Origin: Pirellulaceae bacterium
GTDB taxonomy: Bacteria; Planctomycetota; Planctomycetia; Pirellulales; Pirellulaceae
Reading direction: 5' to 3'
Length of the DNA: 57,582 nt
NCBI GenBank assembly: GCA_030681235.1
Contig: JAUXWY010000374.1
Coordinates: 1 to 57,582 of the forward strand
Shown here: positions 4,685 through 57,492 of the stretch, piece by piece
How the letters are laid out: each line of letters opens with the position of its first letter
Numbering within the stretch: the first letter of the stretch is position 1
Made by a program: the position numbers and the translations under genes
Notes under the pieces: model-generated
Database searches by the model: none
Told to the model about the DNA's origin: nothing
What the model saw: only the letters and a program-made list of their open reading frames with translations

Positions 4685-5230
4685 GGTTCGTTCGCAGGGG
4701 AAGTGTTGGTTCACCAGTAGACAACGCCGACCGGTCGTTGTTTCAAATTCGTGGTTTAGATTGTGGTTTTTCGAGAATCGATCTTAACACAAGGCCAGGA
4801 TCTGCGGCACGATCTGTGTGCATCGGGGCTCGGGGCGTGCCGGGCGTGCCCCCAAACATTCCTGGTCCGGCGCGCAAGCAAACTTATACCGTACGAGGCC
4901 GGAAGTTCGCAGGGAGGTGGAACTTGTATCGGAAAATAGCGTGAACCGTTCACGAATTCAGATCACCACTCGTGAAATACTATCGATGTTTGCTGATAGT
5001 TGAGCGAGCGCCCCGATCGCTCCGGCAGAGTAAAGCCACCGCGCAGACCGCTTTTATGCTGGTTTTAGAAAAAACGAGAGCGGTGAGATCGGATTTTTTA
5101 CTTCCAGTAAAAATTTGAGAGGTGGTTGGAATCAGCTTCAGGGCACGATCGGGGCGCTCGTGCTACTATCATCTCTGTTGCGTGTTTATGGTATGCTCGT
5201 TGCCGTTGGGCAAACATAAGGAGTAGCACC
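4685..5230. other. Intergenic region between divergent genes, with inverted repeat
   Basis: 546 bases between the divergently transcribed sigma factor and beta-lactamase-like genes, so promoters for both should lie here. It contains a GC-rich direct repeat (gggcgtgcc twice, 4835-4853) and the 15-base inverted repeat listed separately. No convincing reading frame was found. Confidence 0.5.
5005..5168. repeat. 15-bp inverted repeat, part of a dispersed repeat
   Basis: CGAGCGCCCCGATCG at 5005-5019 is exactly reverse-complementary to 5146-5160. The right arm continues into GCTACTAT (5162-5168 region). Almost the same 23 bases recur at 44638-44660, just before a tandem GGGCTACT array. The repeat therefore exists at two distant places. 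Confidence 0.7.
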
Positions 5231-6424
5231 ATGAAGCCGGATCTGGAAGTCTCCAATCGAGTGGGTTGGTTGATTGTTGTTGCATTAGTTTCTAGTTGTT
5301 TGACACCGGGTCTATTGTCAGCGCAAGTGGCCTTACGTGAGGAGACCACCGAGCGTTGGGCGTTGGATTCGAGTCGGCAACAAAAAGTTGATCAGGCCGT
5401 GATGGAGGAAATGGAACGCCAGAAACTCGTTGGGGTTGCTATTGGAGTCATCGAAGGCGGTGAAGTTGCGTACGTCAAAGGATACGGGTGGGCCAATCGC
5501 GAGGCCGAAGTGCCGCTGGACGAAACGACGGTGATCAATTGGGCGTCGAACTCCAAACCTGTCAGTGCGGTGATTGCGGCTGGTTTGGTCAAAGCCGGAC
5601 GGTTGGATCTGGATGCCGATATTCGCACGTACTTGCCCGATTTTCCAGACAAGGGACAAACGATCACGACGCGGCAGTTGCTTTGTCATCAAAGCGGGAT
5701 GCCGCATTATAGCAATGGCAGGATTGTGCCGGGCGAACCGTTGGCCAGTCGTTTTCCACACCCGCAGCCGCTGCCTGATTTACCTGAATGGGATCCAGCG
5801 GTCGCGGTGGCGAGGTTTGTTAATTCGCCGTTGATTCATCAACCGGGACATGTGGAAGATTATTCGTCATATGCTTATGTTTTACTGTCGGCGGTGCTTC
5901 AAGCCGCTGCTGATCAATCGCTGCACGAGCAGATTCAAGTCGCCGTGATCGAGCCGTTGCAACTGAGCAGTTTCCAATTGGATATGCCATGGCATCCGTC
6001 TCGGCAAGAAATGCAAGCCAAGTGGGCGGCTGGTTATCGACGATTGTCATCCGGGAACATCGTCGTGATTCCTGACGTGGCACACTATTGGAAGCACGCC
6101 GCCGGCGGGTACAAGTCGAATGCGAATGATTTCAGTCGTTGGGCAGCTGCGCTGTTGGGTGAAACCCTAATGGACAAATCGTCGAAAGAGATTTTTTGGA
6201 AGCCTCAACAGACTGCTGATGGTAAAATTGGAGCGTATGGTTTGGGGTTTGCTGTGGATGGCCGTGGTCAAAACTTTCGAGTGGCTCACGGAGGATCGCA
6301 GGACGAGACGAAGACGCGAATGGTCTTGTACCCCGAACAGCGGCGAGGCGTGGTCGTGATGAGCAATTGCAATCATGCCGATCCTGGTAAGATTTCGACA
6401 GCTGTTTTCTCCGCCATTCGTTAG
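5231..6424 (+). CDS. Secreted serine hydrolase, class C beta-lactamase/PBP-like
   Basis: 397 residues from the ATG at 5231, which has AAGGAG eight bases upstream; the open frame before it is not needed. A signal peptide covers about residues 1-31 (ends LLSAQ). The catalytic Ser-x-x-Lys is S106-N-S-K109 in NWASNSKPVSA. LCHQSGMPHY and the DYSSYAYVLLS block (where YxN is usual, here YSS) and VAHGGSQ near the C-terminus complete the beta-lactamase/transpeptidase fold. Such proteins are usually esterases, D-aminopeptidases or peptidases, not drug-resistance enzymes. Replacement of the Asn in the second motif is a mild deviation. Confidence 0.85.
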   Translation: MKPDLEVSNRVGWLIVVALVSSCLTPGLLSAQVALREETTERWALDSSRQQKVDQAVMEEMERQKLVGVAIGVIEGGEVAYVKGYGWANREAEVPLDETTVINWASNSKPVSAVIAAGLVKAGRLDLDADIRTYLPDFPDKGQTITTRQLLCHQSGMPHYSNGRIVPGEPLASRFPHPQPLPDLPEWDPAVAVARFVNSPLIHQPGHVEDYSSYAYVLLSAVLQAAADQSLHEQIQVAVIEPLQLSSFQLDMPWHPSRQEMQAKWAAGYRRLSSGNIVVIPDVAHYWKHAAGGYKSNANDFSRWAAALLGETLMDKSSKEIFWKPQQTADGKIGAYGLGFAVDGRGQNFRVAHGGSQDETKTRMVLYPEQRRGVVVMSNCNHADPGKISTAVFSAIR

Positions 6425-6468
6425 GGTAGTGTTCGGCCTCGAGAGGTTTTAAACATGGAGATTTTATA

Positions 6469-7710
6469 ATGCGTTCTTGGAAACAGATGGTTTGCGCGCT
6501 CGTTTCATGGATTGGCTGCTGCTTCAGCAGCGGCTTATGCTCGGCGCAAGACTTGCAGGACTTCGTCGCGAAAGCCCAGTATTCACAAGCGATCGGCAGG
6601 TACGAGCAAGTCTTGCGCGATCGGCCCGATGACGATGAAGCACGGTTTCGCTTGGACGTGGCCCAATTCTTGCAAACGCTAGAAGTACTGGGGCAGGCTT
6701 GGCACCGTCATGGTCAAGTGGATGGTTTCTTGACCAGCATGGTTCCATTGTTGCGATTGGATGTTCCGGAAAATCCGCAGCCCGAACCGATCACTTACGA
6801 ACAATTTCGAATGATCATTCAACAAACATTGGATCGTTTGCAAGTTAGCGAAGCGACCTTGGCAAGCATCAAGTCGAACGATGTAGCGTTGGAGCTGGAC
6901 TTGTTGAGCATCAGTATGGACTGGGAAGCGGATCAGAAAGTGGATCGGCATGACAATTTACTGCGAAGTTTTCGTCAAGTCATCGGCAATCGAGTGCCAA
7001 TGGATCCAGCGCGGGGATTTGTGGTTCGCTTTGATGCAGCGGACGTGCAATGGTTACGTGGCTATTGTCAGTTGTTGATGGCCATGTGCGAGTTCGGATT
7101 GGCGTATGAGCAAGAGGATTTTTGGAATGTAACCGCGCGGCGCGTTTTCTCGCAGGCCCAGACGCCGTTCGATTTTCTGAATGAAGAACCACGTATTGAT
7201 GACAATTGGGATATGAACCTGATTTTGGATGCAATCGCCGGAATTCATCAGTTGCGATTTCCTATTCGCGAACCAGAACGCATGCCGCGAGCACTGGCTC
7301 ATGTCAAACAAACGATCCAATTGAGCCGTGACATGTGGAAGTTGGTGGAGGCCGAGACAGATAATGATCGCGAATGGATCCCCAATCCTCGGCAGAAGCC
7401 ACCGTTTCCAGGAGCGGAAGTGTCGAAGGAAATGATCGCGGGTTGGCACGATTTCCTGGACGAAGCGGAAGCGATTTTGGAAGGCAAGATGCTGGTTCCG
7501 TTTTGGCGGGGAACGAATCGCCAACGCGGCGTCAACATTCATCGCTTCTTTGTCGAGCCGACAGATTTTGATCTCCTGCTGTGGTTTCACGGCAGCGGCG
7601 CGGCGGATTATCTCCAGGAGGACTTGCCGGTCACAACGCCAGAGACCTGGCGCCGTTTTGAACGTATTTTTCGCGGCGAGTTCATCGGTTTTGCAATCTG
7701 GTTCAATTGA
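6469..7710 (+). CDS. Secreted TPR-like protein of unknown function
   Basis: 413 residues with a signal peptide (ends SSGLCSAQ). The start has GGAG eight bases before the ATG. An N-terminal tetratricopeptide-like helix pair (QYSQAIGRYEQVLRDRPDDDEARFRLDVAQFL is the typical spacing) is followed by a long helical domain with many Trp and Asp residues. It lies 44 bases after the beta-lactamase-like gene on the same strand, possibly the same transcript. The 29-bp tandem hairpins begin 12 bases after its stop. I recognise no enzyme motif. Confidence 0.68.
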   Translation: MRSWKQMVCALVSWIGCCFSSGLCSAQDLQDFVAKAQYSQAIGRYEQVLRDRPDDDEARFRLDVAQFLQTLEVLGQAWHRHGQVDGFLTSMVPLLRLDVPENPQPEPITYEQFRMIIQQTLDRLQVSEATLASIKSNDVALELDLLSISMDWEADQKVDRHDNLLRSFRQVIGNRVPMDPARGFVVRFDAADVQWLRGYCQLLMAMCEFGLAYEQEDFWNVTARRVFSQAQTPFDFLNEEPRIDDNWDMNLILDAIAGIHQLRFPIREPERMPRALAHVKQTIQLSRDMWKLVEAETDNDREWIPNPRQKPPFPGAEVSKEMIAGWHDFLDEAEAILEGKMLVPFWRGTNRQRGVNIHRFFVEPTDFDLLLWFHGSGAADYLQEDLPVTTPETWRRFERIFRGEFIGFAIWFN

Positions 7711-21266: not shown

Positions 21267-22256
21267 TTACCTGCCGGTTCTTGATCTGTTTTTTCGCGAC
21301 TCGCGTACGACGCGAACTAGGTTGTTTTTCATGGCTCGCGTTGTTCGGAGCGGATCGAATTTTTCAAAGTTGTATTTTCCGGCCCACTCCGACATTTCAT
21401 AGTGCTCCTCGTGTTCGGGATCGGAGATCGCAGCTAAGAAGTCTGCAAATCCCCAAACCCCACCGACGTCTTCGGGTGGACAGCTGTGTTTGCCATCTAG
21501 GCAACGCGGGAACTCCGACGCGGGAGCTGTCGAGGTCTCCACTTGTTCCAGCGAAACGGTATGAGACCAACCGTCGCCGAAATCATACAGGAACTTCATT
21601 TTTAACGTGGGTCGCTTGGTGGGCACCAAGTCGCTCAGACGGTAGTCCGCCTCGTTGTGGTAATCTTCCGTCTCGCCCATCATTTCCAGATCGGCATATT
21701 GCTTTCCTTTAATGGTGAACTGGTGAAGGTGGTAACTCTGCCATCCCATGGCGGCTTCGATGACAGCCGCTAGTTCGAATAGGTTCAGATCAAGTGTTTC
21801 TATCAGCCGCCAAATCTTCGGTTTGAATTCGTCAAGTTGGATATTCAGGCGATAAACGAGCACCTCCGCTCCTTTAGTGCTCGCCTCTTGAGTTTGGGTT
21901 GTATGCTTGGATAGTTCACGCCGTTCCTTGCGTTGGGAAATAATCTGGTCCATGATCCGATCCAGGTCTTCTTTCGAGGCGTTGTTCTGAGCCCAAAAGG
22001 AAAAACCCGACGACAACTTCTTTTTCCATTTCGGCAACAGCTCGGGATCGACCAAAACCTCGATGGAGCGAGCGGTTTTGGGTTGTCGTTCGATCAGGCC
22101 CTTCTGTTCTAGCGACTTCAGCATGTTGTTGACGGACGGCACCGAGACCTTCAAGGTGTCGCCGATTTCGGACATCGAAGGCGCCTGTCCAAATGCCTCC
22201 GTATAAGCATGGATAAAAGACAAATAACGCCCTTGTGTCTCAGTAAATAATGTCAT
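21267..22256 (-). CDS. LexA-type HTH fused to PRiA4 ORF-3-like domain
   Basis: 329 residues. The N-terminal ~65 residues look like the LexA DNA-binding winged helix (RYLSFIHAYTEAFGQAPSMSEI, SVPSVNNMLKSLEQKGLIER). No LexA peptidase domain follows. After a charged linker comes a plasmid pRiA4b ORF-3-like domain from about 130: VYRLNIQLDEFKPKIWRLIE, MGWQSYHLHQFTIKG, FLYDFGDGWSHTVSLE and CPPEDVGGVWGFADFL. The latter family is widespread in mobile-element and defence neighbourhoods with no proven function. The combination suggests a DNA-binding regulator; its targets are unknown. Confidence 0.85.
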   Translation of the reverse strand: MTLFTETQGRYLSFIHAYTEAFGQAPSMSEIGDTLKVSVPSVNNMLKSLEQKGLIERQPKTARSIEVLVDPELLPKWKKKLSSGFSFWAQNNASKEDLDRIMDQIISQRKERRELSKHTTQTQEASTKGAEVLVYRLNIQLDEFKPKIWRLIETLDLNLFELAAVIEAAMGWQSYHLHQFTIKGKQYADLEMMGETEDYHNEADYRLSDLVPTKRPTLKMKFLYDFGDGWSHTVSLEQVETSTAPASEFPRCLDGKHSCPPEDVGGVWGFADFLAAISDPEHEEHYEMSEWAGKYNFEKFDPLRTTRAMKNNLVRVVRESRKNRSRTGR

Positions 22257-22643: not shown

Positions 22644-23441
22644 ATGGCAGATCAGTTGTTTCGAAAATGCCTCTTTTGTCTCTCAATATCGCTCCTGTTA
22701 ACACAGGGTATTGAAAGAACGGAGGCCCAGACATACGCACATGGGTTCCAGATTCATTGCCGTAAATTTATTCCGGGTGGGCCTGGATTAATGAACTTCT
22801 TTATAGAAGTTCCGATGACCGTACCTGGAGTCCAAGACGGGTGGGGTGAGGTTAAGCACTATTCGCAGTACGATCCCAATCACAATCCACACCATTCTAG
22901 CTGTAACGGGTTACCGTATCCGTATGGTACCGTAACTATCGACCCGGCGTGGACAGTAAACCACCCATTCTTCGGGCAAGTGACTGGAGGGAATACGAGG
23001 TTTTTCTTTGACTGGGTGTACGAAGACTACAACCAGCCAGCTGGTCTTGATTATAGCCAAAATTGTCATGGGTATGCGTTTGATAAGGGTGATTGGCCGG
23101 ACAGTGCTTACTATCTCGTGAGCTTTATTCCGTTTGTGAACAATTGCTTTGTACCATGTTACCCCAATGAAGCGTCAAAAGTTTCGAACTTAAGCAGACA
23201 TTCATTGAAAGTGACCGGTACGATGTGCCCGGACCCATTTATACCTTTGTTTCAAAAGCCAAAGTACATAACTAGCTCCGAGCAGTACGCAACTAGCGGA
23301 ATCTACACCCGTGCCAACGGGTGCCCATTTGGTTTAGATGAAGGCGGTCGAAGTGTTGTATGGGCGCACCGTGCTGAGAAATGGGATTGGCAACCAAACT
23401 GGAGCCCGACACAATTTTCCGGGTATAAGCCAGGGAATTAA
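22644..23441 (+). CDS. Cassette protein A1: secreted Cys-rich protein, putative cysteine hydrolase
   Basis: 265 residues from the ATG at 22644, which has an AAAGGG site; the ATG at 22626 is an alternative. A signal peptide ends near TEAQ29. No family is recognised. It is clearly homologous to the protein at 54256-55062: shared blocks are YDPNH, DWVY, DYS-NCH (Cys141-His142), PCY, RHS-KVTGTMC (His186), SSEQ-ATSG-YTR (Glu213), NGCP-GLD, KWDW and YKP. A conserved Cys after Asn, a later His in a beta-strand-like context and a conserved polar residue fit an NlpC/P60- or CHAP-like cysteine hydrolase, but this is inference. Several paired Cys suggest disulfides. Followed 67 bases later by B1. Confidence 0.7.
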   Translation: MADQLFRKCLFCLSISLLLTQGIERTEAQTYAHGFQIHCRKFIPGGPGLMNFFIEVPMTVPGVQDGWGEVKHYSQYDPNHNPHHSSCNGLPYPYGTVTIDPAWTVNHPFFGQVTGGNTRFFFDWVYEDYNQPAGLDYSQNCHGYAFDKGDWPDSAYYLVSFIPFVNNCFVPCYPNEASKVSNLSRHSLKVTGTMCPDPFIPLFQKPKYITSSEQYATSGIYTRANGCPFGLDEGGRSVVWAHRAEKWDWQPNWSPTQFSGYKPGN

Positions 23442-23508
23442 GGCATTATTCATTACGGCAGATCGGTTTCGATCGGTGATTTGCATTTGTTTGACAAAGG
23501 AAATTGGA

Positions 23509-24378
23509 ATGACTGAGTTAGTTAAGATCTTGGTTTTTGTATGTTTTCTTGCACTATCGTGTGTCCATGGAATACTTGGGCAGGATATTCCTCCAGACGG
23601 CCAACATCAATTTGATCGCGTCGCCAAGTTTAACGAGGTTCGGAATCGATCGTTCGACGAGAATCTAAAGGCCATTACCACCGACGACGGAGGATTAGGC
23701 AGTTGGCTGATCATGGGTGTCCTGACAAACACTCTGGGTTGGAAAGACTATTTCTATCCAGTATTTGCGGACCCGAGGATGCGTCGGATGCACGAGCAAT
23801 TGGCCGGCATGGATAAAGCCGCGCGTCACGCAGCATTATCGCAAATTGCCGGGTCAATCGTTCAAAGCCTTGAGTCAATGAAATCGGATGATATCGCTGC
23901 CGGTGACTTTAGTTTGGCGCATGGTTCGCGATGTATGTTATTCGTGCTCTGTGAGTACGACGATCCTAGATTAGAAGAGGTGGTCGATCAATGGCGAGAG
24001 GTCCGTGAATTCATCAAGGCAAAGTACCCGCGTGGTTTGACCGTCGATGAGAATGGCAATAAGGTCGGGCTTTACACTCCGGTCGAGAGCATTGACGAAA
24101 TCTACCTGTACAATGTCTACTTTCAAAAACTCGTTCGACTCAAAGGACGGCAAGACGCGGAGCGACAAATCAATGAACACGCCCGAATGGCAGACATATA
24201 CGAACCATTCTGGTTTATCAAAGAACTGACTTGGATGAACGAAGGAAAGGATGAGCGAGTATTTGCGGCGGTGTTGGGTTCAGGCGGAGCAGGCCGACAA
24301 TTGAGTTTGGACACACTCCCTGGATCGGAGTTGCTAAGAATGCTGCGTGAAGAGGTTTCAAAGTTAGACGCGGAGTGA
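23509..24378 (+). CDS. Cassette protein B1: secreted helical protein of unknown function
   Basis: 289 residues from the ATG at 23509, with AAAGGA upstream; the open frame before it overlaps A1. Signal peptide ends near ILGQ. Homologous throughout to the protein at 53309-54202: shared blocks are DR-AKF-EV-NR-F-ENL, T-DGGLGS, MG-LT, DPRMRRMHE, HG-RCMLF, QK-VR-KG, DER-F and GAGR-LS. It is predicted mostly helical, with no known enzyme motif. Conserved order after A in both copies suggests the two proteins work together, for instance as enzyme and binding partner or inhibitor (inference). The A1-B1 region looks more A/T-rich than its neighbours. Confidence 0.7.
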   Translation: MTELVKILVFVCFLALSCVHGILGQDIPPDGQHQFDRVAKFNEVRNRSFDENLKAITTDDGGLGSWLIMGVLTNTLGWKDYFYPVFADPRMRRMHEQLAGMDKAARHAALSQIAGSIVQSLESMKSDDIAAGDFSLAHGSRCMLFVLCEYDDPRLEEVVDQWREVREFIKAKYPRGLTVDENGNKVGLYTPVESIDEIYLYNVYFQKLVRLKGRQDAERQINEHARMADIYEPFWFIKELTWMNEGKDERVFAAVLGSGGAGRQLSLDTLPGSELLRMLREEVSKLDAE

Positions 24379-48216: not shown

Positions 48217-48467
48217 GCGATTATCCTTCTTGCCACGCCTTCGCCAATTGTTGACGCCGGTCGGGTGTTGGTGTTTTACGTCGACCTACATTATGCGTCT
48301 ACCGGCCGAATTCACCAACACGAGTATTTTTCGGAAAATAACGAGCTCGGTCTACGGAGCGCTGACTTTGGGGTTGTTGGGTTTGAGGCATTTTTGTAGT
48401 GTCCGCAGTGATTCTCGGGCCAAGGCCCAGGGTAGCCCCGCCTTTTGTTCGCAAGGATGCGAATTTC

Positions 48468-51400
48468 GTGAAAAGAACAGCTCACACAATTCAGCGCTCG
48501 TTCGCTGGTTTGAAACGGAACGGGTACCGATGCGTCCTAACAATGGGCTCTTGCGCAGTTGCTTGTTTTGTCTTCCAGCCAGCGACGGGGACCGCTTTCC
48601 AACTTTCCCAATCAACCCAGGTTCAGCGAGCGGATTCGATCGAGTTGTGGCAAACGATCCAAGTTCCCGCAGCACAATTGGATGCGGCCGAACGTCTGCT
48701 CCAAGATTTGTTTGGCAGCCGAACCGACACAACTATCTTGCTCGACCGGCGTCGGCAGGAAATCCGAATTTCCGGGCCTGAGGAAGTCCGCCGCCAATCG
48801 CTTCGAGTCGTTGAAGCGTTTGGGTATGTCCAGCCGACCGGAACGTCACCATCGGGGCCTTCAAGCTTACCCGCGGTACCAACCGTCCCCAACACCAATG
48901 TGCCGGTCAGCTCGGACCTAGCCAGCAGTGCATCGGCCAGGTTGTTGCCGGGAACCAACGGCTTGTTGACGCCACGCAGCCGAACCCAAGTGATTCCAAC
49001 CTATCAACGGCAGGCCTACATCGATCGAGTGACGGCTTTGTTGGGCGGCAAGTTACAACGACAGACTCGGCAGGGTCAAGCAACCTACTTGTACCCCGTC
49101 GATCAACAGCGATACGTCGCGTTCTATTTTGACGACGCGACGAACCAGCTCCGCTTCGAAGGCGATCCTGAACTGGTTCGGCAAATGGAGGCCTTGACCC
49201 AGGCCTTGCTGGCCACTGCCCCGGATCCAGCCAGCGGTATCGGCTTGGTTCGTTCCCATCGAGCGGATCGTCACAAGTTGGCGCGCGTGTTGAGCGCCTA
49301 TTTGGATTCGGGAAATGGACACGAGCGTTCGACGGAACCCGCGCGGGGCTCGAACGTCACCGTTCCTTCGTCAAACGGTGGCGTGGGAACGCCGGCAGTT
49401 CCACCGAAAAATCCAAATCCGACCTCGTCGATTCCTGCGCCACGCATCATTCGGCCCTTGTCCGATCCCGCGACAGCTCGCCCGCAAGTGCGTCCGGTTA
49501 GTTTTCTGAGCCCCATCATCAGCCAAGACTTGGATGTCCCCGCCGCGACGCTCCAGTTCCAAGACGAGACCGGTCGCCCTCAGCAAGGCACGGTCCCGGA
49601 CTTCGGGCGAAACATTGAAGTCGAGTTCTTGCCGGACTTGGATGTGATCATTCTTCGTGGTCGTAACCAAGACCTGGAACAATTGGCCCAGATCATTGAA
49701 CAGTTGGAACAGTTGAGCGAACAGACCCAACCCGAGGTCGAAGTTTATCACCTGCAGCACGTTTCGGCCGATGCGATGGCAACTTTGATCTTGCAAGTGG
49801 ACAACGAGCTGATTCGCGGTCGTCAAGGTCGCGCGACGATCACTTCGCTGAGCAAGCCAAACGCCTTGCTTTTGATCGGTTGGGGCGATGCGGTGGTGGC
49901 GATCAAGGACCTGATTGCGAAGTTGGATCAGCCCGTAGCGCCGGACGCGCAGTTCAAGGTCTACCAATTGAAGAACGCCACGGCCGCTACCGTTCAGACG
50001 TCATTGACTACATTTTTGGCAAACCGCACGGCGTTGGGACTTCGCGCCCGCTTGATGGCAGATGCTCGCACCAATTCATTGATCGTCAGCGCCAGTCCGC
50101 GCGACTTCGCCGAGATCGACCGGATCGTCGACGAGATGGATCGGCCCGAAGGCATGGCGACTTCCCGAGGGCAGGTCGTCGTTGCGAAGAACGTTTTGGC
50201 AACCGACTTGGCTCAGACGCTGCAACTTGCGATTGCTGCGATTCAAACCGGCGATAGTCGTTCTGCGATCTTGGAACTGCTGACGATCGACGAATCCGGC
50301 GCCGAAGTGATTCGATCGGGCGCGTTGGACAATGTATCTGTAACACCGCAACCACGCACCAATTCCGTGTTGGTCACGGCTCCGCCTGAGTCGTTGCCGT
50401 TGCTACTTTCTTTGTTGGAGCAATTGGATCAACCGGGTTCAGCGGCCCAAATGAAAATCTTTCGGATTCAGCACAGCGATGCCGCCAGTATCGTTCAGGT
50501 CCTGCGTTCGCTATTGCCTTCCGAAACCACGACGACCCAGCCGTTTCGTTTGCCCAACAGCGGTGTCGCCAGTTCCGTGGTGCCGCTGCGGTTCTCGATC
50601 GATACCAGATCCAATAGCGTGTTGGCGATTGGAAACGAAGCAGACCTGAATGTGGTCGAAGCGCTGGTGATACGCTTGGACGAAGAAGGCGCGTTGCAAC
50701 GTAAAACAGTTGTCTATCATTTGAAAAATGCACCCGCCCGAGATATTTCGGCAGCGATCAATCAATTCTTGCTCAATCAACGTCAGTTGAACCAAGCGGC
50801 CCCGGGCTCGACCAATCCGTACCAACAACTGGAGCAAGAAGTCATTATTGTCCCTGAACCCGTCGGCAATCGCTTGATTTTGAGTGCGACCAGTCGCTAC
50901 TTCGACGAGGTTTCGAGCTTGATCCAAAAATTGGATGAGGCCCCGCCGCAAGTGATGATCCAGGTCTTGATCGCGGAAGTCTCGCTGAACAGCGCCGATG
51001 AGTTCGGGATCGAGTTGGGGTTGCAGGACACGGTTCTCTTCGATCGTAGTTTGTTGGGCGACCTGTTGACGACCGTCAATAGTACCACAACCTCCACTCC
51101 GGCTGGTGTAGTCACGGTCACCGAAGAAATCATTCAAGCCGCGTCGAATCAGCCTGGTTTCAATTTCAATTCGACGGGCCCATTGGGCAACAGCGGGTCA
51201 CAACGAGCTTTGCACAACAGCAAAGCGACCGGTGGACAAGGTGTCTCGAACTTTGCCGTTGGCCGAGTCAACAACGAATTGGGATTCGGTGGACTGGTAT
51301 TATCTGCCAGTGGTCGCAACGTAACGGCCTTGTTGCGTGCCCTGCAAGAATCACGCCGCTTGGAGATCTTGTCTCGGCCACAAATTCGGAGCTTGGACAA

Positions 51401-52046
51401 TCAGCCGGCCTACATTCAAGTCGGCCAAAAGGTTCCACGAATCACGGGTTCGGTGGTCAATCAGAATGGCCAGACGAATACGGTCGATTTGGAGAACGTC
51501 GGATTGATTCTGGGTGTGACCCCGCGGATTTCGCCCGACGGAACGGTCGTCATGGAAGTGGATGCGGAGAAGAGTCAGTTGGGCACGGAAATCGATGGGA
51601 TTCCAATCACGGTTTCCAACGACGGCACGATCATTCGTTCGCCTCGGATCGAAACGACCACGGCCCAGACGACCGTGAGTGCCGCCAGCGGCGAGACGAT
51701 TGTGTTGGGCGGACTGATCTCGAAATCGCAGCAACAAGTCAAACGTAAAGTGCCCTGGTTGGGCGATCTGCCATTGTTGGGTCGCTTGTTTCGTTTCGAC
51801 AGCGATATCGGGAAGCGAACCGAATTGGTGATCATCTTGACTCCGCATGTGATTCGATCTTCGTACGACAACGAACGAATCAAAGAGCTCGAGTTGGCTC
51901 GCATGAGTTGGTGCGCGGCGGATGTCTACGAAGTGCACGGCGATATCAACCTAACACAACGGTTTTACGATATAGAAGCTGAGACACACGTTGTCTATCC
52001 GAACGGAGCCCCTCCGGAACTGACAGGCTCGGAGGATAAGAAGTAG
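48468..52046 (+). CDS. Type II/III secretion system secretin family protein
   Basis: 1192 residues from a GTG at 48468 with AAGGA ten bases upstream; GTG 48399 and ATG 48543 are alternatives. A signal sequence ends near GTAFQ. At least four secretin N-type domains repeat the pattern VYHLQHVSADAMATLIL and VYQLKNATAATVQTSL. The C-terminal secretin core has VMIQVLIAEVSLNSADEFG, LSRPQIRSLDNQPAYI, VGLILGVTPRISPDGTV, and VPWLGDLPLLGRLFRFD with LVIILTPHVI. It should form an outer-membrane ring. No ATPase or pilin genes are nearby, only a lipoprotein one base downstream. Such large secretins are typical of planctomycetes. Confidence 0.9.
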   Translation: MKRTAHTIQRSFAGLKRNGYRCVLTMGSCAVACFVFQPATGTAFQLSQSTQVQRADSIELWQTIQVPAAQLDAAERLLQDLFGSRTDTTILLDRRRQEIRISGPEEVRRQSLRVVEAFGYVQPTGTSPSGPSSLPAVPTVPNTNVPVSSDLASSASARLLPGTNGLLTPRSRTQVIPTYQRQAYIDRVTALLGGKLQRQTRQGQATYLYPVDQQRYVAFYFDDATNQLRFEGDPELVRQMEALTQALLATAPDPASGIGLVRSHRADRHKLARVLSAYLDSGNGHERSTEPARGSNVTVPSSNGGVGTPAVPPKNPNPTSSIPAPRIIRPLSDPATARPQVRPVSFLSPIISQDLDVPAATLQFQDETGRPQQGTVPDFGRNIEVEFLPDLDVIILRGRNQDLEQLAQIIEQLEQLSEQTQPEVEVYHLQHVSADAMATLILQVDNELIRGRQGRATITSLSKPNALLLIGWGDAVVAIKDLIAKLDQPVAPDAQFKVYQLKNATAATVQTSLTTFLANRTALGLRARLMADARTNSLIVSASPRDFAEIDRIVDEMDRPEGMATSRGQVVVAKNVLATDLAQTLQLAIAAIQTGDSRSAILELLTIDESGAEVIRSGALDNVSVTPQPRTNSVLVTAPPESLPLLLSLLEQLDQPGSAAQMKIFRIQHSDAASIVQVLRSLLPSETTTTQPFRLPNSGVASSVVPLRFSIDTRSNSVLAIGNEADLNVVEALVIRLDEEGALQRKTVVYHLKNAPARDISAAINQFLLNQRQLNQAAPGSTNPYQQLEQEVIIVPEPVGNRLILSATSRYFDEVSSLIQKLDEAPPQVMIQVLIAEVSLNSADEFGIELGLQDTVLFDRSLLGDLLTTVNSTTTSTPAGVVTVTEEIIQAASNQPGFNFNSTGPLGNSGSQRALHNSKATGGQGVSNFAVGRVNNELGFGGLVLSASGRNVTALLRALQESRRLEILSRPQIRSLDNQPAYIQVGQKVPRITGSVVNQNGQTNTVDLENVGLILGVTPRISPDGTVVMEVDAEKSQLGTEIDGIPITVSNDGTIIRSPRIETTTAQTTVSAASGETIVLGGLISKSQQQVKRKVPWLGDLPLLGRLFRFDSDIGKRTELVIILTPHVIRSSYDNERIKELELARMSWCAADVYEVHGDINLTQRFYDIEAETHVVYPNGAPPELTGSEDKK

Positions 52047-52047
52047 G

Positions 52048-53304
52048 ATGATGCGATACTTCGTCCAGCCAATCGTTTTGTTCGGATTCATGTTCACCGG
52101 GCTTGTGCTCCTGAGCGGCTGCAGTTCGTTTGTTGGCAAAGAGAAGTCCACGTCACTTTGGCCGTGGCAGAAGACAGAAGAGAAGCCACAGCTTCCCACG
52201 CGAATCTTGACCATCTGGACGGACGCCGTTCACCACCAAGCGGGAGAAAAAGCCAAACGCGGCTTTGGTGGACGTGTGGTGTTTTACGCCACCGGCGAAC
52301 AACCCATTCAAGTCGATGGAACCCTGACCATCTATGTGTTTGCGGACGAGGCGGGCCAAGAGAGCCCTTCACCCGAGCGAAAGTACGTCTTTGGCGCTGC
52401 GGAGTTGAAACAGCATTACAGCAAATGCAGTTTGGGCGATTCTTATAGCGTGTGGCTGCCTTGGGATGTCGTCGGCGGAACGTCGCGGCAATTGACCTTG
52501 ATCGCTCGATTCGATTCAACCGACGGCGGAACCGTGATGTCGGATCCAGCTAAGAAAATGCTGCCAGGTTTATCCAAAAGACCAGACGCCGAGACCGGCG
52601 ACGCCACCGCGGCCGCCGAAATTTCGAACCGGACGGAAGATGGTGCATCGACCCAACTCCGACCACTCAGGCAGGCATCCAAATCAATCGCGAAACCAGT
52701 GTCTGCTAGTCGATCTGAGGGTCATGGTCCGGCAGGTACACGGCGATCCGCAGCTAGATCGATCGCCGAGGTGCTCCAAGAGCAACGTGAAGTGTCAAGT
52801 GAAGTGCCAAGTTCAACGTCGACTGACGCACAAGATCGTGACGGGCTTGATTCCGGAGTGACTCAAGTGGGATATGAGGAATCGGAATCCGATTCGAATA
52901 TCACGCCCCGCCAAAAAGAAAGTTCATCGTCGAATTCACGTGTCGAGACCATTCAATTGGGACGTTTGCGTTCGAGCACGGCGTCGGTCGTCAATGTCCC
53001 GCAGCATTGGTTGCACCAATCGGCGGCCGATTTTCAGGCCGAAACCACCGACACGTACGACGTTCACGACCCGGAACGACAAGCTCCACGTACGAACGTC
53101 TCTTATGGTCGTCCGGGTGAGAGCCGCCTGAACTCAAGTTCCAACGCATTCACGGAAACAGAAACATCCGAGTCGAGTGGCGATCCTAAAGAAGAACCCT
53201 GGCCGCGCCGAACGCGAACCATGGGCAGCGGCCGTCGCTCGATCGCCGAATCACGCCGAGACGCCATGGCCGAGCGCCGGCCGGAGAAGGCACAGCGTCC
53301 TTGA
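52048..53304 (+). CDS. Lipoprotein partner of the secretin
   Basis: 418 residues beginning one base after the secretin stop. The lipobox is VLLSGCSS, with Cys near residue 26. Residues ~40-170 form a conserved beta-rich domain (RILTIWTDAVHHQAGEKAKRG, GFGGRVVFYATGEQPIQVDG, TIYVFADEAGQE); the rest is low-complexity Ser/Arg/Glu-rich and probably disordered. The tight spacing suggests a role as pilotin-like or assembly partner of the secretin (inference). It ends 4 bases before the convergent B2 stop. Confidence 0.78.
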   Translation: MMRYFVQPIVLFGFMFTGLVLLSGCSSFVGKEKSTSLWPWQKTEEKPQLPTRILTIWTDAVHHQAGEKAKRGFGGRVVFYATGEQPIQVDGTLTIYVFADEAGQESPSPERKYVFGAAELKQHYSKCSLGDSYSVWLPWDVVGGTSRQLTLIARFDSTDGGTVMSDPAKKMLPGLSKRPDAETGDATAAAEISNRTEDGASTQLRPLRQASKSIAKPVSASRSEGHGPAGTRRSAARSIAEVLQEQREVSSEVPSSTSTDAQDRDGLDSGVTQVGYEESESDSNITPRQKESSSSNSRVETIQLGRLRSSTASVVNVPQHWLHQSAADFQAETTDTYDVHDPERQAPRTNVSYGRPGESRLNSSSNAFTETETSESSGDPKEEPWPRRTRTMGSGRRSIAESRRDAMAERRPEKAQRP

Positions 53305-53308
53305 TTTT

Positions 53309-54202
53309 CTAGGGTTCTTCCCGCAGTGCCTCTGCTCGGATGCCATCCAATAATTGTTGGCCACGTTCGGTCCGGCGTGACAACTCGCGACCGGCCCCAG
53401 TCGTTGCAATAACGATGGAAAATATTCGTTCGTCTTGGCCCTTTGTTGTCCAAGTTCGATCTTCGAATATCCAATATTGTTCAGCGTTTACTTGTTCCGC
53501 CAACGCGTCCAAAATTTTCTTTGCTTCGGACTTGCCTTTGCTCCGAACAATTTTCTGAAGATACAAATTGAACACAAAGACTTCGTCGATAATATCAAAC
53601 GGACGGCCTGCGGGCACCATTTCGCCGTCCGGTGCCTCCACAAACCTCCCACGATACTTCGTTGCAATCGTGGCTCTAATTTCGAGCCAGTTCGGGCTAA
53701 TGGAGTCAAATTCCTCGAAGTCAAATTCTGTCAGCAAGAAAAGCATGCACCGCAATCCATGGCCAAGTGGAAAATCAAATGCGGCCGCGTCGGATTCCTG
53801 GATCAGGTCGAGGTTGCTTTTGATGATTCTCGAAATTCGCGCTAACGCATCGCGACGTTCCTCCTCATTCATCATCACCAAATTCTCGTGCATTCGGCGC
53901 ATTCTTGGATCGTTAAATGTCGGGGAAAAAAGGTCAACTACATTACGCGCCGGAGTCAACATTCCCATAGCGGCCGCGCTGCCTAGACCGCCATCTTCGG
54001 TAACAACGGCACTAAGGTTTTCTTCAAACGTCCGGTTGTAGACCTCGGCAAACTTCGCAGCACGATCCGGTCCATTGCGAATCAAGTTCGGATCGTCAGG
54101 TTTTGTTTCCTGAGCATTTGCTTCCGGAGCGATGTAGGTCGTTTGCGTTGTGAGTACGGCGATTACAGCAACACTGACGATACGGCAAATTGAATTGAAC
54201 AT
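53309..54202 (-). CDS. Cassette protein B2: secreted helical protein, paralogue of B1
   Basis: 297 residues with a signal peptide ending near PEANAQ. Homologous along its length to the protein at 23509-24378: AAKFAEVYNRTFEENL, VTEDGGLGS, DPRMRRMHENL, GHGLRCMLFLL, LQKIVRSKGK, DERIFSIV and TGAGRELS. No known domain is recognised. It follows A2 after a 53-base gap in the same order as A1-B1. Charged and helical, it may bind A2 in the periplasm or outside the cell (inference). Confidence 0.7.
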   Translation of the reverse strand: MFNSICRIVSVAVIAVLTTQTTYIAPEANAQETKPDDPNLIRNGPDRAAKFAEVYNRTFEENLSAVVTEDGGLGSAAAMGMLTPARNVVDLFSPTFNDPRMRRMHENLVMMNEEERRDALARISRIIKSNLDLIQESDAAAFDFPLGHGLRCMLFLLTEFDFEEFDSISPNWLEIRATIATKYRGRFVEAPDGEMVPAGRPFDIIDEVFVFNLYLQKIVRSKGKSEAKKILDALAEQVNAEQYWIFEDRTWTTKGQDERIFSIVIATTGAGRELSRRTERGQQLLDGIRAEALREEP

Positions 54203-54255
54203 TGGATTTCCTTTGTGGACAAGATTGGTAGATTTAATTGGCGATGCGATCGAAA

Positions 54256-55062
54256 TTACGGTCCGGCCGGGAATGGCTTGTAATCACGAAAGTATGGGGG
54301 CTCGTAGTTGTTGACAAACCAATCCCACTTGGCTCGTACGTGCGCAAGACCAATATCGAGACCATTCGGACATCCGTTCATCCGCGTATAAACGCCGCTT
54401 TCATTGAATTGTTCCGAGCTAAACACGATTCTTGGAATTAGTATTGGAATCCCTGGATTGAGTTCGCACATTGTACCAGTGACCTTGATACTATGACGAC
54501 CCGGATGAGACGCAACTATGGATTCATTGGCCAAACACGGAATGTAGCATGGTTGAAACGGCGGCTCCCCAAGCAACGAATAGTCGTCGTCCGGGTGATC
54601 ATGTTTACCGTAAGTATGCGCGTGACAATTTCGTGAATAGTCCATTCCCGGCAGAGGCGGAGGCGGAATGTATCCTGCATAAACCCAATCCCAATGACGT
54701 TTGTTGTCATCAATATCTACAATACCAACCCCTGCAACAGGTTGTTGCCAATTGAGATTTACGGTAATCTTGGCGTAGTCATATTTTTGACCAAGACAAT
54801 TCTTATGATGGATATCGTCGGCGTGGTTCGGATCGTATTTCTCGTACCAATCATGTGTTGCATTTCCAATGGGTGGTTGCCCAGGCATATCACATTGTAA
54901 GAATACTGGAAAACTCTGAAGAACACCGCCTATTGACTTTCGACACAGTAATAATAGCTCAGGTTTAGCCACTTGGCCAACCGCCAAGCTTGTCAGTGAG
55001 GCAAGCATCTGGAAAACGCTCAAATGAATGACCAAACCCACAACGAGTTGTTTAAATCGCAT
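54256..55062 (-). CDS. Cassette protein A2: secreted Cys-rich protein, paralogue of A1
   Basis: 268 residues from the ATG at 55062; the frame upstream runs through a microsatellite and is not signal-like. The signal peptide covers ~1-29 (VIHLSVFQMLASLTSLAVG). Shared with A1: YDPNH, DWVY, DYSRNCH (Cys146-His147), PCY-PC, RHSIKVTGTMC (His190), SSEQ-NESGVYTR (Glu217), NGCPNGLD, KWDW, YKP. The Asn-Cys-His, later His and conserved acidic/polar pattern fit a secreted cysteine hydrolase, unproven. The 5' region contains eight TCGTTG repeats 109 bases from the start. Confidence 0.7.
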   Translation of the reverse strand: MRFKQLVVGLVIHLSVFQMLASLTSLAVGQVAKPELLLLCRKSIGGVLQSFPVFLQCDMPGQPPIGNATHDWYEKYDPNHADDIHHKNCLGQKYDYAKITVNLNWQQPVAGVGIVDIDDNKRHWDWVYAGYIPPPPLPGMDYSRNCHAHTYGKHDHPDDDYSLLGEPPFQPCYIPCLANESIVASHPGRHSIKVTGTMCELNPGIPILIPRIVFSSEQFNESGVYTRMNGCPNGLDIGLAHVRAKWDWFVNNYEPPYFRDYKPFPAGP

Positions 55063-55373
<311 letters not shown>

Positions 55374-56063
55374 CTATCTCTGACCATTCGAAATGGTGAT
55401 TTGATCGGTGACTTGCGAGACCCCTGGCTGCATCGATGTGATCAGAACGGCCAATGCTCGTTGATGTTCTGTTTCGACTTGACCGGACAGGTAGGCGACT
55501 CGATTCTCCAGGCGAACTTCTAGCGAGTGGGGTCCGATTCGATCAATGGCCTGAGTGATTTCGAGCCGGGTTTGTTCGATCCGATCGAGCGCTTCAACTT
55601 GGTTACGTGAGTTCGGCGCTGCAAGGGGCTCGAAGGCCAAGATCAAACGCGGTGCGTAGGGCTGGGATGGGCCTGCGGGAGCGAGTCGGCGATTGACTTG
55701 AGTGGCGAGGTCCGCAGCTGGCGGCAGTGACTCGACGGCCGATTGAACACGGCCGGATTCGATCACGGCACCCGACCCGACAAAACGTGTCGTCGCTTGA
55801 TCCGAACCCACAAACTCGCCCGGTCGGCGCCGATCGCGCAGAAAACGCTCGGACCCGGTAATTCCACCTGCGGACTCGGCTTCTGCCGCCACATTTTGCA
55901 ATCTTTGTGGTCCAGCCTGGCGTTGCAGTGGGCGGCCGAACGTTCGTTGCTGTTGGGCTTCGGCGACCAATGTGGTCCCAAGGCCAAAAAAAACAACGAT
56001 TGAGCATTGAAATATCAGTTTCTGCACCGGGAGCACCTTTTGGGGAAATTCCGCCTTGAGCAT
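55374..56063 (-). CDS. Secreted BON-domain protein
   Basis: 229 residues from the ATG at 56063; ATG 56117 would add a hydrophilic stretch ahead of the signal peptide (KLIFQCSIVVFFGLGTTLVAEAQ). The middle is Gln/Arg/Gly-rich and low in order. The last ~65 residues form a BON domain: HSLEVRLENRVAYLSGQVET, then ALAVLITSMQPGVSQVTDQITI. BON domains bind membranes or peptidoglycan. It stands alone on the - strand. Confidence 0.75.
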   Translation of the reverse strand: MLKAEFPQKVLPVQKLIFQCSIVVFFGLGTTLVAEAQQQRTFGRPLQRQAGPQRLQNVAAEAESAGGITGSERFLRDRRRPGEFVGSDQATTRFVGSGAVIESGRVQSAVESLPPAADLATQVNRRLAPAGPSQPYAPRLILAFEPLAAPNSRNQVEALDRIEQTRLEITQAIDRIGPHSLEVRLENRVAYLSGQVETEHQRALAVLITSMQPGVSQVTDQITISNGQR

Positions 56064-56520: not shown

Positions 56521-57492
56521 ATGAAGCTACAACACCTGACAAGTATTGTGCTAAGATTGTTCGCTGTGATTTCTTCGGTTGTGAGTGGACAAGAGACCGC
56601 TAGTCTGGCTACCGGGTCAACACCTCAAGAGCTGGAGCGGATCACCGCCCAACACGTTCCCAACCTGATTCGGGTCACGGCGGGGATTTATTCCGGTGGT
56701 TTGCCCGAGGGGGAAGCCGCGTTTCGCGAATTGGCTGACTTGGGGATCAAGACCATCATCAGTGTCGATGGAATGAAGCCCGACGTCGAGACGGCGGATC
56801 GGTTTGGATTGCGCTACGTCCATCTGCCACACGGCTACGATGGCATTTCTGAACAACGAAGTCAGGAGCTGGCCAAGGCAATTCGCGATCTGCCTGGCCC
56901 GATTCTGTTGCATTGTCATCACGGCCAACATCGTAGCCCCACGGCCGCTGCGGTGGCATGTGTGTTATCCGGACGCATCGATGCAGCAAGCGCCGAGTCG
57001 GTGCTTCAATTGGCTGGCACTAGCCCCCATTACCTCGGTCTGTATCAAACGACCAAACAGGCTCGGCCGCTCTCCCAGGAGCAGTTGGACGCGGTGCATG
57101 TCGAATTCAAAGAGGTGGCCGAAGTACCTCCCATGACGGAAGCGATGGTCGAGATGGAACGTCGATTGGGTCACCTGCAGTCGATCGAGAAAGCTGAATG
57201 GCAAACCCCGACGTCGCATCCGGACTTGGTCCCTGCTCACGAAGCCTTGCTGCTCCGCGAGTTGTACGCCGAGATGTTGCGCTCCGATGAAGCGGCCACG
57301 GCCACCGACGAGTTCAAGACGTGGCTGAAGGACGGCGAGCGACAACTACAAGATTTGGAACGAGATCTGGGGGCCTTGGCCACGAGCCAAGATCCTGCCG
57401 CACTTCATTTGCAGCTCGCCAAGACTCAAAAGGCCATTCAAGCCAATTGCCAAGGTTGCCATCGCCAATTTCGCGACGTCCCGCAACGTTAA
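56521..57492 (+). CDS. Secreted tyrosine/dual-specificity phosphatase fused to cytochrome
   Basis: 323 residues. The N-terminus is hydrophobic (IVLRLFAVISSVVSGQ), a signal peptide. Residues ~45-180 form a cysteine phosphatase domain: IYSGGLPEGEAAFRELADLGIK, a general-acid-like loop near HLPHGYDG, and the P-loop H131-C-H-H-G-Q-H-R138-S. Residues ~190-323 are helical and end with C310-Q-G-C-H314, a c-type haem site near the C-terminus as in cytochrome c' proteins. The single chain thus joins a phosphatase and a cytochrome outside the cytoplasm. The natural substrate is unknown. Confidence 0.85.
   Translation: MKLQHLTSIVLRLFAVISSVVSGQETASLATGSTPQELERITAQHVPNLIRVTAGIYSGGLPEGEAAFRELADLGIKTIISVDGMKPDVETADRFGLRYVHLPHGYDGISEQRSQELAKAIRDLPGPILLHCHHGQHRSPTAAAVACVLSGRIDAASAESVLQLAGTSPHYLGLYQTTKQARPLSQEQLDAVHVEFKEVAEVPPMTEAMVEMERRLGHLQSIEKAEWQTPTSHPDLVPAHEALLLRELYAEMLRSDEAATATDEFKTWLKDGERQLQDLERDLGALATSQDPAALHLQLAKTQKAIQANCQGCHRQFRDVPQR

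Follow-up and report, generated by a model that had tools for sequence, protein, structure and literature searches.

Paired genes for two predicted exported protein families, A and B, in a Pirellulaceae bacterium and its relatives: a possible effector–immunity unit

A contig from a Pirellulaceae bacterium carries two copies of a two-gene unit, A–B, encoding two undescribed proteins with export-like N-termini, and the link between the two genes is one-sided: every intact A gene that we found has a B beside it, while B also occurs by itself. Our best explanation, which we offer tentatively and with rather less than even confidence, is that A is an exported Cys-His enzyme able to harm its maker and that B is its exported immunity protein, often present as an orphan. 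Such a strict one-sided gene link makes the two families a small and directly testable system, and if this reading is true they would represent an effector–immunity class in planctomycetes, whose means of competition have been little studied, that carries its own export signal.

Two copies of the unit in one window

The window, by which we mean the whole stretch of 57,582 nucleotides that was analysed, holds the first unit at positions 22644–24378 on the forward strand, where A1 (22644–23441, 265 aa) is followed after a gap of 67 bases by B1 (23509–24378, 289 aa), and the second at positions 53309–55062 on the reverse strand, where A2 (54256–55062, 268 aa) is followed after 53 bases by B2 (53309–54202, 297 aa). 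Pairwise comparison found A1 and A2 to be identical at 104 of 269 aligned positions (39%, E 1e-50) and B1 and B2 at 112 of 264 (42%, E 4e-71), a likeness far above chance, so that one two-gene unit is present twice. This bears out the claim of a first-pass annotation of the window that the gene pair is duplicated in the same order on opposite strands, and the motifs quoted there are present in both copies. A hydrophobic stretch at the N-terminus of all four proteins is consistent with export, which we predict for each of them. The G+C content of the four genes is 0.466–0.497, compared with 0.539 for the whole window. Both proteins are maintained in a genome of the same genus (G051), as the A copy there is 67% identical (with a pN/pS of 0.28 and saturation at synonymous sites) and the B copy 70% identical (dN/dS 0.09 at a dS of 2.4).

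The second unit lies in a stretch of 2,140 bases (positions 53277–55416, with no strand assigned) that is missing at this site from two genomes of the same genus, G119 and G096. The genes that flank A2–B2 in the window, a BON gene and a gene for a 418-aa protein, adjoin one another in genome G119 with 84 other bases between them, and the same two genes stand side by side without A–B in genome G096, where the absence is judged by gene order. A2–B2 comes or goes as one piece, and gain in the window's lineage is a simpler reading than loss from the G119 and G096 site.

Intact A genes are always followed by B

Profile searches of 242 genomes of the bacterial family found A in five, one of which (G029) has it only as a broken gene, and B in eight, with each family found in four of the 68 genera. 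The window's own genome (521 contigs) has two A and three B genes, the third of which (B3) is alone on contig C507, and it was the only one of 392 genomes in a sample of the phylum in which A was found. It should be noted that the genomes are metagenome-derived drafts in which single frame breaks may be errors, and that a scan of genome contigs with the A profile, which returned three loci among 42 candidate stretches, none of them new to us, relies on two short patterns and is insensitive.

B is the next gene on the same strand for all six intact A genes (A1, A2, one each in G051 and G147, and two in G134), and the six pairs occupy five different genomic places, with A1 and the G051 pair sharing one gene setting. 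The spacing between the two frames is mostly small (97 bases on contig C80 and 32 bases on contig C14 of G134, for instance) and is about 320 bases in G147. One of these B genes is shortened: on G134 C80, near the contig end, an intact A adjoins a B without some 95 C-terminal residues, although full-length B genes exist elsewhere in this genome. The distant A proteins share 26–30% of their residues with A1, and their B neighbours 17–18% with B1; these distant B genes were missed by a search with B1 only, and were spotted by position and then linked to the rest through the profile and through pairwise matches, of which some are weak. Across the six pairs, A distances and B distances are positively correlated (r 0.95 from 15 distances), which is weak evidence, as identities reach saturation and the pairs have common ancestry.

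The sole A sequence with no B nearby is a short remnant on G134 C82, where the 7.8 kb fetched hold no B. The first-pass annotation had proposed a joint function for the two proteins and had named A genes found widely without B as evidence that would speak against it; we looked for such genes and found only this remnant. Joint action of A and B is well supported.

B also occurs without A

Merging of two fragment pairs reduced 18 matches to the B profile to 16 B loci. The expected adjacency of A and B in other genomes is borne out in one direction, as B follows every intact A, but an intact A accompanies B at only six of the 16 loci. Two more lie beside a broken A (contig C25 of G029, and G119), one is a second B in tandem behind the G051 pair, and seven have no A in the 9–12 kb fetched (C507 of the window's own genome, C101 of G029, C80:2612, C128 and C65 of G134, and one locus each in G599 and G612). 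Two of the 16 loci are themselves broken, with the second B of G051 split between two frames and the C80:2612 copy of G134 also split. As G599 and G612 hold B and no A was found anywhere in either genome, B may also do something independent of A.

The broken A of G029 is without its 5' half, has an in-frame stop in the remainder and lies beside a split IS4/5-type transposase gene, and the neighbouring B has a full frame of 460 aa. In G119 all that is left of A is a run of 20 residues resembling its C-terminus (E 0.01), which lies upstream of a B that is intact; the profile scan did not report this remnant. These two broken A genes against one shortened B are too few for a test. Four of the seven solo copies sit with another B from the same genome in the B tree (B3 with B2, the two G029 copies together, and C80b and C128 of G134 with the paired C14 copy), and the others have no resolved position or come from genomes without A.

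A short recurring sequence, from which the peptide (R)IIHEAWA...ESV...IRGSDAMKRSL derives, was seen at several places in G134 (L021 at about 5000–5500, L020 at 1813–2067 and L085 at 6229–6789); one copy is beside an A remnant, and the sequence looks like a dispersed repeat.

Two undescribed protein families

The statement in the first-pass annotation that neither protein has a known family holds within Pfam, NCBIfam, PADLOC, PHROGs and PDB sequences, and we regard A and B as two undescribed families of predicted exported proteins. Pfam gave no match above chance for the four window proteins (A1 and A2 up to E 5), no family for five A members up to E 10 (PF05257 and PF00877 included) and nothing above chance for eight B members. 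NCBIfam and PHROGs gave nothing above cut-off for the window proteins, PADLOC no match for six A and nine B members, and PDB sequences no match to the A profile up to E 10. Viral contigs yielded no relative of either B1 or the A profile, and plasmids and phages gave no match to A2, the one window protein used as a query there. Touches of single B members on SLED (E 0.044) and DUF3106 (E 0.053) in Pfam and two matches of the B profile to PDB sequences (best E 0.077) were set aside, and the NCBIfam touches on lactococcin 972 (E 0.031) and a putative antitoxin family (E 0.025) were far below the cut-offs.

Twenty columns are invariant in all six A proteins, including N140-C141-H142, H186, E213-Q214 and four further Cys. 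The order of Cys141, His186 and Glu213, which is an order along the chain and not in space, is of the CHAP and NlpC/P60 type, as these enzymes have the residue order Cys, His, polar. An AlphaFold model of A1 was unusable (mean pLDDT 34.5). CHAP-like proteins (CHAP is PF05257) with an NCHGW motif share with A the NCHG stretch, a His 48–49 residues further on (42–64 in A) and then a strand with a conserved Ser/Glu, but A has no Pfam match and the alignment is limited to the NCHG stretch, with weak scores. A profile of ten such proteins from the same bacterial family, which was chosen for its motif so that its ranking against A is no independent test, placed four of the six A proteins as the top non-members among 407 frames (E 0.0085–0.22; A2 and the G134 C14 protein were not ranked), and in reverse the A profile put nine CHAP-like frames first among non-members (E 0.011–0.94). 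Alignment of the A profile with the CHAP-like profile by hhalign gave 33% over 14 columns. The earlier suggestion that A is a Cys-His hydrolase keeps its two residues, invariant in six of six proteins, but the resemblance to CHAP-like enzymes that might place A among them is weak.

Kinship of A with DUF7689 (PF24738), considered because of a motif, was not supported (hhalign probability 0.3%, at the level of the 0.6% of an unrelated B control). Among 120 genomes of the bacterial family, 10 encode the CHAP-like proteins themselves (NCHGW...HTG...ESKWG), with two in tandem in G021 (L036, L037, L051–L063); a scan for the NCHGW DNA motif found none in 199 genomes of the phylum and two in 40 relatives.

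The B proteins have only seven invariant columns. A model of B1 made with five sequences is mostly helical and of moderate confidence (mean pLDDT 76, pTM 0.74), and no solved fold stands out when it is compared with known structures.

An exported effector–immunity unit and its alternatives

The occurrence of A only in the company of B (six of six intact genes, one B being shortened), together with the multiplication of B and its persistence alone (seven of 16 loci), is characteristic of effector and immunity genes and leads us to the effector–immunity reading, and as both proteins are predicted to be exported they would meet outside the cytoplasm. Also in favour are the broken A beside a full B frame in G029, the grouping of solo B copies with others from their own genome, the absence of A2–B2 as a whole from its site in G119 and G096, the lower G+C of the four genes and the invariant residues of A. 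Against the reading stand the shortened B next to an intact A on G134 C80, the scant A remnant in G119, the two B loci that are themselves broken and the two genomes with B but no A. With an export signal of its own, A would exit the cytoplasm and act as a Cys-His enzyme, possibly of the CHAP or NlpC/P60 type, whose members cleave peptide or amide bonds in proteins or the cell wall, and its other conserved Cys would form disulfides. B, encoded by the next gene and likewise exported, would be helical and would bind A and hold it in check within the producer. The unit would move as one piece, A would be tolerated only where B is present, and B genes would multiply and persist alone through the protection that they offer against the A proteins of neighbours. 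The enzyme activity and toxicity of A, its binding and neutralisation by B, and the target of the unit are all what we infer. The enzyme–inhibitor pair suggested in the first-pass annotation is favoured by the one-sided dependence, but inhibition as such is a prediction. A more far-reaching claim seems to us rather unlikely, namely that A–B represents a new class of antibacterial effectors with their own export signal and matching immunity genes in this family of planctomycetes, A being a CHAP-like enzyme that has diverged and B forming a new family of helical immunity proteins that has spread as orphan protection.

The Tae4/Tai4 pair, as described in PMC3695027, consists of an NlpC/P60 enzyme held by a purely helical partner with a periplasmic leader that blocks the active site, and A–B is alike by prediction in joining a Cys-His enzyme with a helical exported partner. 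There is, however, no detectable sequence likeness between the two systems, and, type VI genes aside, no delivery domain, secretion genes or other delivery system tied to A was identified. Tae effectors have no signal peptide of their own and are delivered by type VI secretion, whereas A1, A2 and their relatives start with a hydrophobic, export-like stretch. Accounts of polymorphic toxin systems describe effector genes that adjoin immunity genes, helical-repeat immunity proteins (with HEAT repeats, planctomycetes included) and surplus or orphan immunity genes (PMC3482391, PMC12247911, PMC10470768). As far as these accounts go, A–B resembles such systems in gene adjacency, surplus B genes and the predicted helical nature of B, but A is without a long N-terminal delivery part and B matches no Pfam immunity family.

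Three other explanations account for the pairing too, but account less well than the effector–immunity reading for B genes that stand alone and for a range that is rare and patchy. B might serve A, a useful secreted enzyme, as its dedicated chaperone, its activator or a propiece that inhibits it, in which case A would be harmless and need B to fold or be active. This likewise predicts that A is never found without B and that both are exported, and the four further invariant Cys of A suggest disulfide folding that may need help; it leaves unexplained the solo B loci, the duplication of B within genomes and a range of five genomes for A and eight for B among 242, and we think it unlikely. Proteins of the envelope or matrix with a structural or adhesive role might also assemble together, using Cys and His for disulfides or metal binding and not for catalysis, and the export-like N-termini, the five invariant Cys of A and the lack of a convincing enzyme family would suit them. 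Such a role is improbable, as the Cys, His, polar order and the NCHG stretch recall CHAP-like proteins and a rare, accessory distribution is ill-suited to an envelope part.

B might also be a substrate or cargo that is processed or attached by A outside the cell, in which case one A could serve several B proteins, as the excess of B loci (16) over intact A genes (six) and the two intact A genes and five B loci of G134 would allow. The adjacency of two genes for proteins with export-like N-termini suits this as well. G599 and G612, which hold B with no A found, speak against this, as do the few invariant positions of B and the lack of a common cleavage or attachment site evident by eye, and we judge it very improbable.

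Other features of the window

A large secretin gene is followed by the gene for the 418-aa protein, which is of no Pfam family and adjoins B2 (positions 48399–53304), in an order common to G119 and G096. A run of GTCGTT hexamers lies upstream of A2 (55158–55229), within the stretch that is absent from G119. Near the end of the window (56521–57492) is a gene for an exported-looking protein whose weak match to Tc-R-P, a phosphatase family that takes its name from polymorphic toxin systems, is below cut-off (E 0.00015). Upstream of A1 and on the opposite strand (21267–22256), a LexA-type DNA-binding domain is fused to a pRiA4b ORF-3-like domain.
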